Shown here in pieces: positions 1,567 to 33,357 of a stretch of DNA of 35,947 nt. Every line of letters begins with the position of its first letter. Positions within the stretch are counted from its first letter, which is position 1. Below the pieces are notes generated by a model. That model saw only the letters and a list, made by a program, of their open reading frames with translations, was not told the origin of the DNA and ran no database searches. A program made the position numbers and the translations under genes. Origin of the DNA: Flavobacteriales bacterium (GTDB lineage Bacteria; Bacteroidota; Bacteroidia; Flavobacteriales; TMED113); contig PBKX01000007.1 in NCBI GenBank assembly GCA_002722215.1, positions 16,649 through 52,595 on the forward strand, read 5' to 3'.

Positions 1567-2541
1567 TTAAATAATTGAATCTACCCACTCTTTCCCCCAC
1601 TGTTCTTTTTCTTTTTTATTCCACAGTTTTGGAAAAAAAATAATTTTTTGAAACCTCGGAGGAAGAAATTCTTGCCAATTTGTTCCTCCGGTAGCCTGGA
1701 TGTTTTGGCTTTGGCTCTTTAGGTGTTTGACTGCGGACTTGTAGTGTGCAAGTTTCCAGTTAACATTAATGCTAGTGTCATATTCTTTAAGAAGATTAAT
1801 TAGCCTTTTGCTTTCCCGGTCCTTTTTTTTAAGGCTCTTATATTTACTCCAAACATTTAGTGATTGCATTTTGTTTGTTAGTTTCAGTAATCTTTTTTGA
1901 TACTTTTTTTCAAACTGTTTTAGTGTATATGTTTTTTTTCCAGAATCTAAATCATTTGCTCCCATTTTCCAATACACTTTCTCAAATTGATTAACTAAAG
2001 ATGTCTTTTTTTTATCTGTGCCTGTTACTAGGTTTTCTAGGTCGGTTGAGCGCAGTTCAATCATTCTGTATTGTATGCTTTGAAACCCGCTGCTTGGCAG
2101 TAAAGCCATACGAAACTTTATAAACTGAGACCTGTCCATACCATTGATCATAATTTCAAAGGAATTAATTAAATGCTTTAAATATCTATTAATTCTCTCC
2201 ATCTTCTCTATAAAAAGATTCAATGTTATTTGTTTGTTCCAACCTAGATCTTCTCCGGTTTCAAGTACATTTTTGCCATTTTTGTTAATTTGTTCTAGTT
2301 CCAATAGGATTAATTGAAAATAAAGTTCAGTAATTTGGTGGTATAAGATAAAAATCTTTTCATCCGGAAAATCTGTTTTTGGGGTTTGAAGAGACAGGAG
2401 TGTATCTAGATGAATATAATCCCAATATCCCATATAGTCGGAGTATAAGAGTCCGTCTAGAAATGAATAAAGGTCTTGGCCTGTAGCCAAATATTTATCT
2501 GACAATTTTTTAATTCGATCAGTTAATTTTTTGTCATTCAT
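1567..2541 (-). CDS. kynA: Tryptophan 2,3-dioxygenase family protein (324 aa)
   Basis: Heme enzyme that opens the indole ring of L-tryptophan to N-formylkynurenine, the first step of the kynurenine pathway, in the cytoplasm. The family signatures are in order: FILYHQITELYFQL with the active-site base His68; FRMALLPSSGFQSIQYRMIE at 143-162, with Arg144 as the expected carboxylate contact; the proximal heme ligand candidate His266 in NWKLAHYKSAV; and ATGGT at 283-287, the substrate-binding loop. Length fits the Bacteroidota branch, which is longer than the Xanthomonas enzyme. No other kynurenine-pathway gene is in the window, so a full catabolic route cannot be claimed. A 68-bp gap precedes it after the DUF3108 gene and the M23 gene follows closely, suggesting co-transcription. 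Confidence 0.9.
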   Translation of the reverse strand: MNDKKLTDRIKKLSDKYLATGQDLYSFLDGLLYSDYMGYWDYIHLDTLLSLQTPKTDFPDEKIFILYHQITELYFQLILLELEQINKNGKNVLETGEDLGWNKQITLNLFIEKMERINRYLKHLINSFEIMINGMDRSQFIKFRMALLPSSGFQSIQYRMIELRSTDLENLVTGTDKKKTSLVNQFEKVYWKMGANDLDSGKKTYTLKQFEKKYQKRLLKLTNKMQSLNVWSKYKSLKKKDRESKRLINLLKEYDTSINVNWKLAHYKSAVKHLKSQSQNIQATGGTNWQEFLPPRFQKIIFFPKLWNKKEKEQWGKEWVDSII

Positions 2542-2609: not shown

Positions 2610-3416
2610 TTAATTATCAGAAAGATTAGGCAGGGTTCCTTTGTGTGAAGTTAGAGTTGCATATATGGATCCCACTAAAATGGGGAGTTCTATTTTTAAA
2701 GGTATATGTATTGGTCCGGGTGTTATCCAAACAGTAGCTCCGGTTGTGTCTCGAAATATTCGACCCTTTTCTAGTCTTGGAGACCATTTTGTTGCGTGTA
2801 TTTTTCCAAATCGGGTTTTTATAATTTCTTTTCCTAACTGAACAATATAGGATGGAAAAACCTGGCCGTTATAATAATAAGAAAAAAACAGCGTGTCTGC
2901 TTCTCTCACTGTTTTTTCAGCGGTGGTTCGCAGCCTATACGCTATTGAAAGGATATCGTTAATTTCAGATAATTCAGGGAAGTTTTCTGCCGAAAATCGA
3001 ATAGAGTCATAGTTTGAATACCCTCCCTCTGTAATATCCATTTTATGCCATATGCTGTTCATGGTTTTTGGATCAACAAGAGAGGTGTAGTTATGTTGAA
3101 CCTTCATGAAAAGACTAAACAGTTTTGTTGTTTGCCCAGATGCTTCAAAAATATAATTATTTACACTGTCGGTTTTAACGCTCAGTTTGGCGTGTCCGGC
3201 AGAAATAACACCCCTTGCTTTATTTTTTTTTCCGTAAGAGATTTTATAAAAGAGCTCTTCTCCTGGAAAAAACGCCTCGCTCTTTGCATTTTTGCTCAAA
3301 ACCCGACCATTTTTACCAAAAAAGACATAAAAAGACATAAAAAGACATAAAAAGACATAAAAAACAGGATATTTTTTTGCATGATTTGGTGTTATTTTTT
3401 TGTCAATTTTTGTCAA
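2610..3416 (-). CDS. DUF3108 exported protein with repeat-encoded signal region
   Basis: Secreted or periplasmic protein of unknown function. The body from about residue 45 (EAFFPGEELFYKISYG, then an all-beta pattern ending in a threonine/serine-rich tail) matches DUF3108. The longest form starts at TTG 3416, 17 bases after the leuS stop, giving a lysine-rich n-region and an 18-residue hydrophobic core, a plausible signal peptide. That core is written by a 10-bp tandem repeat (3321-3360), and the TTG lies inside a second 10-bp array. The only in-frame ATG near it is at 3338 inside the first array; starting there would leave only about seven hydrophobic residues, too short to export well. I therefore prefer the TTG, with modest certainty. 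The body is open with no internal stop. Confidence 0.75.
   Translation of the reverse strand: MTKIDKKITPNHAKKYPVFYVFLCLFMSFYVFFGKNGRVLSKNAKSEAFFPGEELFYKISYGKKNKARGVISAGHAKLSVKTDSVNNYIFEASGQTTKLFSLFMKVQHNYTSLVDPKTMNSIWHKMDITEGGYSNYDSIRFSAENFPELSEINDILSIAYRLRTTAEKTVREADTLFFSYYYNGQVFPSYIVQLGKEIIKTRFGKIHATKWSPRLEKGRIFRDTTGATVWITPGPIHIPLKIELPILVGSIYATLTSHKGTLPNLSDN
3321..3360. repeat. Four perfect copies of a 10-bp tandem repeat (AAAGACATAA)
   Basis: Four exact head-to-tail copies at 3321, 3331, 3341 and 3351, flanked by partial units. On the minus strand the unit reads ATGTCTTTTT and codes the hydrophobic core of the DUF3108 signal peptide. Because 10 is not a multiple of 3, three copies make a 10-residue cycle (M-S-F-Y-V-F-L-C-L-F) that is open and hydrophobic in every frame, so gain or loss of a copy shifts the frame between the upstream start and the protein body. 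Confidence 0.97.
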
Positions 3417-3430
3417 TTTTTGTCAATTTT
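3401..3430. repeat. Three perfect copies of a second 10-bp tandem repeat (TGTCAATTTT)
   Basis: Three exact copies at 3401, 3411 and 3421, lying between the leuS stop (3434-3436) and the first repeat array. On the minus strand each copy gives TTGACAAAAA, so there are three TTG codons 10 bases apart in three frames. Only the middle one (3416) reads without a stop into DUF3108; the one at 3426 meets TGA after seven codons and the one at 3406 meets TAA after four. The unit length equals that of the neighbouring array although the sequence differs. Confidence 0.95.
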
Positions 3431-3433
3431 TTA

Positions 3434-6205
3434 TCAAAAAACAATATTTATGATCTTTTTTGGAACAATAATCATTTTTTTAACATTTTTGTTGTCTAGG
3501 TAGGCTATTGTTTTCGGGTGTGACATAACAGTATTTTCTATATCTTTTTTGGATTTGCTATTATCGAAATTTAAAGTAAATCGAACTTTACCATTGAATG
3601 AGATAGGGTAGGTAGTTGTATTATCCTCCAAATAATCAGCGATAAAATTTGGCCAATTTGCAAAACTTATGGAATCCCGATATCCTAAAGATGCCCAAAT
3701 TTCTTCAGAAATATGTGGAGCATAAGGAGAAAGTAATATTACAAAGTCATGAATAATTTCTCGTTTATTGCAATTGAGGCTTATAAGTTCATTTAGACAA
3801 ATCATTAAATTACTTACGACAGTGTTAAAAGAAAATCGCTCCAAATCATCAGTTACTTTTTTAATACATTGATGTAAAGATCTATATTCTTTTTTAGACG
3901 GTTTCTCATCAGATATTATAAATTTGTTGTCTTCAGCATGCGTTAGTTTCCAAAACTTTTTCAAGAAATTGTGAACACCATTAATGCCTTTTGTATCCCA
4001 GGGTTTAAATTGTTCCAAAGGACCAAGAAACATTTCATACATTCTTAATGTGTCCGACCCAAATCGTTCAATTAAGTCATCAGGAGCCTGAGTGTTATAT
4101 TTAGATTTTGACATTTTTTCAACCTCAAATCCACATAAATAATTATTGTTTTTATTTAAAATAAATTCCGCATTAGCAAATTCAGATCTCCAGTTTTTAA
4201 ATTTATCGACATCTAATATATCATTATCAACTAATTCTATATCTACATGGATTTTAACTGTTTTATATTCTTCCTTTTTTTCAAATGTTACAAATTTGTT
4301 TGTATTTAGGATTCTATATACAAAATTGGATCGTCCGAGAATCATACCTTGATTAATTAATTTTTTAAAAGGCTCTTCAAAATCAATATATCCAAGATCA
4401 TATAAAAAATGCGTCCAAAAACGAGAATATAATAAATGACCCACTGCATGTTCAGCCCCTCCAACATATAGGTCTACCTGACCCCAGTATTTAGCCTTGC
4501 CTTTGGAGACAAGCTGAGTATTATTTTTGGGGTCCATAAACCTTAAAAAATACCAAGATGACCCGGCCCAACCAGGCATTGTATTATATTCCATGTTGTC
4601 GCCCTCAAAAATATTCCAATCTCTCTTTCTTGCTCTTGCTAATGGCGGCTCTCCTTTTTTCGTAGGCAAGTATTTATCAACTAAAGGTAATTCCACACAT
4701 TCATTTTCTTTAATTAGAAATGGTGTTCCATTTTTATAAAAAACAGGGAAGGGCTCGCCCCAGTATCTTTGTCTACTAAATATAGCATCCCTAATTCGAT
4801 AATTAATTTTTCGTTTACCCACATCCATTTTTTGAATATGGTTAATCGCCTGTTTAATTGCAACCGAACAGTTTAAATCAGTTAAAAAATCAGAGTTAGT
4901 AATAATAGATTCTTTATTCTCATTAGCAGACTGTGAAACATCAGCATCTTTAAAAATATTAGGAATTTTCAAATTAAATTTTTTTGCAAAAAGCCAGTCT
5001 CTTTGATCCCCACAAGGAACGGCCATGACCGCCCCAGTTCCATATGAAGCAAGGACATAGTCCGCAATCCAAACAGGTATTTCTTTCCCTGTAAAAGGGT
5101 GAATTGCATATGCTCCAGAAAACACCCCGGTTATGTTTTTAATGTTACTTTGCCTTTCCCTTTCCGATTTTAATGAAACCGATTTACAGTATTTTTTTAC
5201 TTCATCTTTATGTTTTAAATCAGTTATTTTATTTATTAATTTATGCTCAGGAGCAATAACCATAAATGAAACACCGTATATAGTGTCAGGTCTGGTTGTA
5301 AAAATTTGAATTTTGTCTTTTTTGCCCTTTATTTTAAAATCGATTAAAGCCCCCTCTGATTTCCCAATCCAATTTTTTTGCATTTCTTTTATCGAATTAC
5401 TCCAATCAAGATGGTCTAATCCTTGTAATAATCGGTTTGCATATGCGGTAATTCGTAATGACCACTGCTTCATTTTTTTTTGCTCAACAGGGAAACCTCC
5501 TCTTTCAGAATATCCATCTTTTACCTCATCATTAGCTAATACAGTTCCTAATTCTGGACACCAATTTACCCATGTTTCAGATAGATATGCTAAACGATAT
5601 TTTAATAGCATAGCCTGTTGTTGTTCCTTATCCCAAGCATTCCATTCTTTAGCTGTAAATACTGGGGTGTTTTCGTCACATGGAGCCTTAACCATACCAT
5701 TACCATTTCTTTCAAATTCTGTAATTAGCTCAGATATGGGAAGAGCTTTATCATCTATATTGCAATAATATGAGCTAAATAGTTGCTTAAAAATCCACTG
5801 TGTCCACTTGTAGTATAATGGATCGGATGTTCGAATTTCTCTATTCCAGTCAAATGAAAATCCAATTTTATCCAATTGTTCTCTATATCTAGCAATATTG
5901 TTGTTCGTTGTTATGTTAGGGTGTTGACCGGTTTCGATAGCATATTGTTCTGCTGGTAAACCAAAAGAATCATAGCCCATTGGATGCAAAACATTAAACC
6001 CTTTTAGGCGTTTATAGCGAGCATATATATCAGATGCAATATATCCCAATGGATGCCCAACATGCAGTCCTGCTCCAGATGGATATGGGAACATGTCTAG
6101 CACATAGAATTTTTTTTTCTTTGGATCTTCTGACACAGAATATGTGTTTTCAGATCGCCATTTAGATTGCCATTTTTTTTCTATTTCAAGAAAATTATAT
6201 TTCAT
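3434..6205 (-). CDS. leuS: Leucyl-tRNA synthetase (923 aa)
   Basis: Class Ia synthetase that charges tRNA-Leu. The HIGH-type motif is HVGH at 48-51 in PYPSGAGLHVGHPLGY, and KMSKS lies near residue 697 (EKMSKSKYNTQAPDD). The CP1 editing domain is present, with TTRPDTIYGVSFMVIAPEH and the later YGTGAVMAVPCGDQRDW, so post-transfer editing should work. Between the catalytic domain and KMSKS there is a leucine-specific insertion (about 640-690), as in other Bacteroidota. The C-terminal anticodon-binding and small terminal domains are complete. The ATG at 6205 is chosen because the MKYNFLEIEKKWQ start is the normal one. The gene heads a leftward run with DUF3108, TDO and M23, and has a perfect 20-bp palindrome 9 bases upstream of its start. 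The window also holds a cognate tRNA-Leu gene (31561-31644). Confidence 0.98.
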   Translation of the reverse strand: MKYNFLEIEKKWQSKWRSENTYSVSEDPKKKKFYVLDMFPYPSGAGLHVGHPLGYIASDIYARYKRLKGFNVLHPMGYDSFGLPAEQYAIETGQHPNITTNNNIARYREQLDKIGFSFDWNREIRTSDPLYYKWTQWIFKQLFSSYYCNIDDKALPISELITEFERNGNGMVKAPCDENTPVFTAKEWNAWDKEQQQAMLLKYRLAYLSETWVNWCPELGTVLANDEVKDGYSERGGFPVEQKKMKQWSLRITAYANRLLQGLDHLDWSNSIKEMQKNWIGKSEGALIDFKIKGKKDKIQIFTTRPDTIYGVSFMVIAPEHKLINKITDLKHKDEVKKYCKSVSLKSERERQSNIKNITGVFSGAYAIHPFTGKEIPVWIADYVLASYGTGAVMAVPCGDQRDWLFAKKFNLKIPNIFKDADVSQSANENKESIITNSDFLTDLNCSVAIKQAINHIQKMDVGKRKINYRIRDAIFSRQRYWGEPFPVFYKNGTPFLIKENECVELPLVDKYLPTKKGEPPLARARKRDWNIFEGDNMEYNTMPGWAGSSWYFLRFMDPKNNTQLVSKGKAKYWGQVDLYVGGAEHAVGHLLYSRFWTHFLYDLGYIDFEEPFKKLINQGMILGRSNFVYRILNTNKFVTFEKKEEYKTVKIHVDIELVDNDILDVDKFKNWRSEFANAEFILNKNNNYLCGFEVEKMSKSKYNTQAPDDLIERFGSDTLRMYEMFLGPLEQFKPWDTKGINGVHNFLKKFWKLTHAEDNKFIISDEKPSKKEYRSLHQCIKKVTDDLERFSFNTVVSNLMICLNELISLNCNKREIIHDFVILLSPYAPHISEEIWASLGYRDSISFANWPNFIADYLEDNTTTYPISFNGKVRFTLNFDNSKSKKDIENTVMSHPKTIAYLDNKNVKKMIIVPKKIINIVF

Positions 6206-32706: not shown

Positions 32707-33357
32707 ATGAAATCGGTATCTATAAAAGGAATAGCGAGAGTAGATCTAGGAAAAAAGTTCGCTAAACAATTAAGAAAAGCAGAGAATGTCCCATGTGTTA
32801 TTTATGGTGGAAAAGAAGCGCCGGTTCACTTCTATGCGCATTCAAATGAATTTAGAAAAATTGTATATACACCAAACGTCTATTTAATTGATATTGTTGT
32901 TGGAGAAAAGCAATTTAAGGTAACAATGGGTGATATTCAATTTCATCCTGTTACAGACAAAATTTTACACATTGATTTTCTAAGAGTATTAGAAAATAAG
33001 GCGGTTAAGATTAATATTCCTGTGAATATTACAGGTAACTCAATAGGTGTTAGAAATGGAGGTAGATTAAGTTTAAACATGAGAAGAATCTTAGTTGAGG
33101 CGCTTGCAGAAAATTTACCGTCAACCATTGACATAGACATTACTCAATTGCGAATTGGGCATGCAATCAGGGTATCAGATCTATCATTAGATGGTGTCAC
33201 ATTATTAAGTAATTCAGCGGATGTTATTGTAGCAGTTAAAACAGCGAGAGCAGCAATTGAAACAGAGGAAGAAGAAGACTCTGAGGAGGGAGATGCGCCA
33301 AAAGATGACAAGTCTACAGAGGGGGATGCGCCAAAAGATGATAAGCCTGCAGAATAA
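32707..33357 (+). CDS. rplY: Ribosomal protein bL25, CTC/TL5 form (216 aa)
   Basis: Binds 5S rRNA in the large subunit. The N-terminal L25 domain (VSIKGIARVDLGKKFAKQLRKAENVPCVIYGG) is followed by the TL5-type beta domain (about 95-180, ending ALAENLPSTIDIDITQLRIGHAIRVSDL). The C-terminus is an acidic, repeat-rich tail with two 11-residue copies of EGDAPKDDKxx, presumably disordered. Acidic tails are common in CTC-type bL25. It lies between prs and pth, with 20 bp to pth. Confidence 0.95.
   Translation: MKSVSIKGIARVDLGKKFAKQLRKAENVPCVIYGGKEAPVHFYAHSNEFRKIVYTPNVYLIDIVVGEKQFKVTMGDIQFHPVTDKILHIDFLRVLENKAVKINIPVNITGNSIGVRNGGRLSLNMRRILVEALAENLPSTIDIDITQLRIGHAIRVSDLSLDGVTLLSNSADVIVAVKTARAAIETEEEEDSEEGDAPKDDKSTEGDAPKDDKPAE
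33286..33351 (+). repeat. Two 33-bp tandem copies in the bL25 tail
   Basis: Copies at 33286-33318 and 33319-33351 differ at a few bases and code EGDAPKDDKST and EGDAPKDDKPA. The 33-bp unit keeps the reading frame, so copy number can change the tail length without breaking the protein. Confidence 0.9.

Follow-up and report, generated by a model that had tools for sequence, protein, structure and literature searches.

Comparison of related genomes points clearly to the junction between leuS and a gene for a DUF3108 protein as a hot spot of tandem-array turnover, a site that changes fast. The window, which is the whole stretch of 35,947 nucleotides analysed here, carries two arrays of 10-bp repeats at this junction, and both are real and far beyond chance. 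The reading favoured, which we consider about evenly poised between right and wrong, is that arrays are being turned over continually at particular loci and that frame-shifting is a side effect.

The window's own genome (G000) is a 1.43-Mb draft of 39 contigs, 81% complete, with a GC content of about 0.32. The nearest named relatives by leuS were MAGs and SAGs of uncultured marine Flavobacteriales; a DUF3108 protein search of genome contigs returned no named relatives. The features of the locus are listed in Table 1. Read along the minus strand, leuS is followed directly by array 2, then by a 33-bp stretch, array 1 and the DUF3108 body; both arrays, taken on the coding strand, fall after the leuS stop codon and before the DUF3108 domain (PF11306; E 6.8e-22; 78.7 bits, above the gathering cut-off of 26). 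The gene order leuS-DUF3108-TDO was conserved across the family, and among the nine closest leuS relatives examined DUF3108 adjoined leuS in two (G003 and G004 only). A structure model of the DUF3108 protein from its single sequence was uninformative (pLDDT 36), and a PDB sequence search with the protein matched heme-binding IsdB domains only marginally (no E below 0.014), and these hits were taken as chance.

Table 1. Coordinates of genes, arrays and candidate start codons at the leuS-DUF3108 junction of the window
Feature	Position	Strand	Remarks
leuS, leucyl-tRNA synthetase, upstream gene	3434..6205	-	ORF and Pfam; stop codon 3434-3436
DUF3108 protein, 268 aa	2610..3416	-	Domain is residues 57-256, about 2649-3248
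Tryptophan 2,3-dioxygenase (TDO) family gene, downstream of DUF3108	1567..2541	-	ORF and Pfam
Array 1, TATGTCTTTT x4.5	3319..3363	-	TRF: AAAAAGACAT x4.5, 100% identical
Array 2, TTGACAAAAA x3.5	3397..3431	-	TRF: TTTTTGTCAA x3.5, 100% identical
TTG start, MTKIDKK...	3414..3416	-	Shares the body frame when array 1 has 4 copies
ATG opening MQKNILFFMSFYVF... in the next frame	3380..3382	-	Overlooked in the first-pass annotation
ATG inside array 1 that always shares the body frame	3336..3338	-	MSFYVFFGKNG, 8 hydrophobic residues, no charged n-region

Simulation of 6 Mb of sequence by an order-2 Markov model of this genome's composition produced no 10-bp array with at least 3 copies. In 629 kb sampled from G000, arrays 1 and 2 were the sole exact arrays with a unit not a multiple of 3 and at least 2.9 copies. 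Across the whole draft, a pattern of four T5 tracts spaced 10 bp apart matched arrays 1 and 2, a further array after fabH and one site that is not a repeat. The same pattern at 9-bp or 11-bp spacing gave no match in the whole draft of G000 and no repeat array in that of G001, and at 10 bp the repeat arrays of both genomes were confined to the leuS-DUF3108 and fabH-accB spacers. The array census was drawn from sampled stretches, with whole genomes covered by the T-tract pattern searches only; each species was represented by one draft genome, and further arrays may hide at contig ends.

Differing arrays were present at the leuS-DUF3108 junction in the two other species of the genus examined (G001 and G002) and in a sister genus. 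The junction of G001 held two arrays, one of 21 bp following leuS and one of 10 bp (TGCTTTTTTA, 3.8 copies) within the signal core; that of G002 held 6.5 copies of AAAATTGAAC, which contains the start codon; and that of G003 held a 20/21-bp array of about 5 units, with an ATG in each. A seed near the leuS stop codon, AAAATTGA, was common to G000, G001, G002 and G004 and had been expanded with different unit boundaries. The DUF3108 proteins of the relatives were only about 45-50% identical to that of the window, and perfect arrays must therefore be recent. The first-pass annotation had proposed counting repeat copies and comparing relatives as a check; every close relative had a different array, and the site proved evolutionarily unstable. 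In G004 (L100:4229-4250), a terminator-like hairpin with a T-run was observed right after leuS, where the relatives have arrays.

Array 1 encodes FYVFLCLFMSFYVFF, the hydrophobic core of the signal peptide, and its copy number determines the frame of the DUF3108 body. The consequences were enumerated by varying array copy number and listing every start that reaches the body, with signal-peptide quality assessed by hydrophobicity alone. TTG 3416 reads into the body at 1, 4 and 7 copies of array 1, and ATG 3382 does so at 2, 5 and 8 copies. At 4 copies, as assembled, TTG 3416 is the sole full-signal start (MTKIDKKITPNHAKKYPVFYVFLCLFMSFYVFF, with a 17-residue hydrophobic run), and the frame of ATG 3382 terminates at TGA 3296-3298. 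At 5 copies a full signal begins at ATG 3382 (MQKNILFFMSFYVFLCLFMSFYVFF, 22-residue hydrophobic run), and that ATG yields a run of 12 residues when there are 2 copies. With 3 copies the array-internal ATG alone is left, with 8 residues and no charged n-region; with 6 copies there are array-internal ATGs alone, the longer form having 18 hydrophobic residues and again no charged n-region.

Array 2 starts just past the leuS stop codon and has a TTG in every unit, but the penultimate one (3416) alone is usable. At any copy number of at least 2, the penultimate unit always supplies this same TTG and the frame is unaffected; array 2 is therefore not a switch. Because the position homologous to TTG 3416 holds a TTG in G002 (MNKIEQN, its only long start) and an ATG in G004 (MNKNITK), TTG 3416 is probably the real start in the 4-copy state.

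TRF and translation confirmed the first-pass annotation in its description of two exact 10-bp arrays at the DUF3108 start, with array 1 coding the signal core. The frame enumeration agreed with it that TTG 3416 is the only start for the long form, being the one body-frame start with a full-length signal when array 1 has 4 copies, and that ATG 3338 always stays in frame but gives no full signal. Its statement that the repeat is open in all three frames holds for array 1, whose 30-nt cycle is stop-free in all frames, but not for array 2, whose cycle includes a TGA. A change of one copy in array 1 does break the frame from TTG 3416, as it had stated, but the expected loss of export does not follow at 5 copies, where ATG 3382 offers its 22-residue run.

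Several of these features would suit a phase-variation switch for DUF3108 export, selected as such in array 1 and resembling opa, with alternative starts in the manner of lic; we regard this explanation as doubtful. Four copies would lead to the TTG start (probably weak), 5 or 2 copies to the ATG start (probably strong), and 3 or 6 copies to no full signal peptide. The copies of array 1 are exact, the unit is not divisible by 3, the array lies in the signal-peptide core and is open in all frames, and two upstream starts in different frames precede the body. The comparable 10-bp signal-peptide array of G001 and the turnover of arrays at the species level, which amounts to instability, are also consistent with a switch. 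Against it, four copies of a 10-bp unit would be short for a rapidly slipping tract, similar arrays are present in the non-coding fabH-accB spacer, and frame enumeration showed that the layout of two starts and three frames is not conserved in either G001 or G002. The former has the signal-peptide array and lacks the second full-signal start; the latter lacks array 1 and has a leader array only, whose copy number has no effect on frame.

Precedents for such a switch are found in host-adapted pathogens, from which frame-based switches are best known. In Neisseria opa, the reading frame of the exported protein depends on CTCTT pentamers in the leader peptide (PMC3960869). The likeness consists in exact repeats whose unit is no multiple of 3, placed in or before the coding sequence and here within the signal-peptide coding region, and in a copy number that sets the frame, so that a change brings the body into or out of register with a usable start; retention of the switch layout in close relatives, a supporting and not strictly defining feature, was not found. 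The DUF3108 locus differs from opa in its 10-bp unit, in having only four copies and in the related arrays of a non-coding spacer; DUF3108 is no known surface antigen, and its switching is predicted. Haemophilus lic1A has several starts in two frames (PMC4019658), and lic1A and lic2A, with their tetranucleotide repeats, resemble the locus in having more than one start codon before the body, in differing frames, so that the start used can depend on copy number. Here, in contrast, the unit is 10 bp, the tract is in the signal peptide and switching is only predicted. The DUF3108 arrays are not claimed as a member of the opa or lic systems.

Two other kinds of repeat were compared. TAACTGA direct repeats adjoin start codons in spacers of Beggiatoaceae, Cyanobacteria and some Bacteroidetes (PMC4679880) and are likewise short exact direct repeats beside start codons in marine bacteria; however, TAACTGA is one fixed heptamer at many genes, whereas the units described here are of 10-21 bp, have another sequence, differ by species and locus and occur in two spacers only, and this class was rejected. 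In the T-tract of the Helicobacter pylori sabA promoter, repeat length has been proposed to tune expression through DNA shape, as a rheostat (PMC4081817). The resemblance lies in a repeat-length change beside a gene that is proposed to tune rather than only to switch, but the sabA tract is a homopolymer at a mapped promoter, whereas the present arrays were recognised from sequence.

The second site, the fabH-accB spacer, was chosen post hoc, having been found during the background survey, and its recurrence in other genomes was then checked separately. The spacer contained a 20-bp array of 11.6 copies in G002, 20-bp arrays of 3.1 and 4.8 copies in G003, and a 10-bp array of 3.5 copies together with a 20-bp array of 2.5 copies in G001. 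In G000, the end of contig C1 (L300) falls within a 10-bp array, TTTTTCATCA, of about 6 copies just after fabH; accB was sought in this 81% complete draft and was not found. Arrays of the spacer elsewhere were located at L292, L274:9678-9909 and L084:5657-5839, and the units differ among the four species. With a core fatty-acid gene, accB, at this non-coding spacer, on/off control is an improbable function for its arrays, and not every array of this lineage can be an on/off switch. Mainly for this reason, the proposal of the first-pass annotation that the arrays at DUF3108 exist for phase variation was not accepted: equivalent arrays occupy the non-coding spacer in G000 and three relatives, and the layout at DUF3108 itself is not kept in G001 and G002.

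Plain slippage noise, independent of locus, in a genome rich in A and T would accord with the GC content of about 0.32 and with the T-rich codons of signal peptides. It is very improbable and already contradicted by the distribution of the arrays. A sample of 2.28 Mb from five genomes contained exact arrays with a unit not a multiple of 3 and at least 2.9 copies at leuS-DUF3108, at fabH-accB and at two other places only; in the DNA sampled or searched by pattern, these two isolated cases were the only comparable arrays elsewhere. The same two spacers were affected in four species, and arrays were present in none of the 59 DUF3108 start regions of other families in the order, which are equally A/T-rich.

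It is also possible, though unlikely, that the arrays act in cis as spacer elements (bent A-tract DNA, a transcript end or attenuator, or an A/U-rich RNA landing site) and that the coding of a signal peptide is an overlap. The arrays begin soon after the leuS and fabH stop codons, with periods of 10 or 19-21 bp, and the hairpin of G004 stands at the same place. By a wedge model, whose parameters were sanity-checked only, the curvature of the G001 and G003 spacers was within the top 1% of post-stop regions, but predicted bending was unexceptional at leuS in G000 (7.5%) and in G002 (15-18%), a mixed result for bent DNA as a common feature. As RNA, window positions 3312-3436 would form a long imperfect hairpin in which array 2 pairs with array 1 (MFE -21.3, z -2.6); this pairing was absent in G001 and G002, and an array-array hairpin or terminator was rejected as the common feature. 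No common motif beyond A/T tracts was found. Promoter-like matches of sigma-70 style (TTGACA in array 2) were about as frequent as in shuffles; Bacteroidota promoters differ from this style.

Under locus-specific turnover, the reading preferred here, the leuS-DUF3108 and fabH-accB spacers would be two hot spots where this marine Flavobacteriales lineage repeatedly builds and replaces tandem arrays. The arrays repeat at roughly every helical turn or every second one (10 or 19-21 bp), contain A/T tracts and start soon after the upstream stop codon, and in the window species they extend into the start of DUF3108. Array 2 is a series of redundant TTG starts, its copy number immaterial, and the copy number of array 1 selects the start by geometry: TTG 3416 (4 copies), ATG 3382 (2 or 5) or no full signal (3 or 6). 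Copy number may still be varying in living populations, and frame-shifting would for the most part be a by-product of turnover, not what the arrays are there for. Two points stand against this reading. Array 1 lies in the signal core in the same body frame in both G000 and G001, which fits a selected switch equally well, and a pure mutation hot spot would not account for the choice of two particular spacers. A bolder proposal, which we think improbable, is that the lineage maintains helical-period arrays in two fixed operon spacers, one behind leuS and one behind fabH, while their repeat sequence is replaced completely. Selection would then act on the array as such, not on its sequence, or a targeted process would generate it, and at DUF3108 it would have become an export switch with three states.

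Should copy number prove to vary in oceanic populations, a simple frame-based export switch would exist in a free-living marine bacterium of small genome size. Even without switching, the recurrence of freshly made arrays at the same two operon spacers in four species offers a natural test of what persists: array length, helical phase or plain mutability.

Two minor observations were made. Contig C32 of G008 (L307) encodes a zinc-finger protein of giant-virus look and, judged by eye, may be MAG contamination. In the window, positions 33286-33353 hold an in-frame 33-bp repeat of 2.1 copies that codes the acidic tail EGDAPKDDK of a protein resembling ribosomal protein L25.
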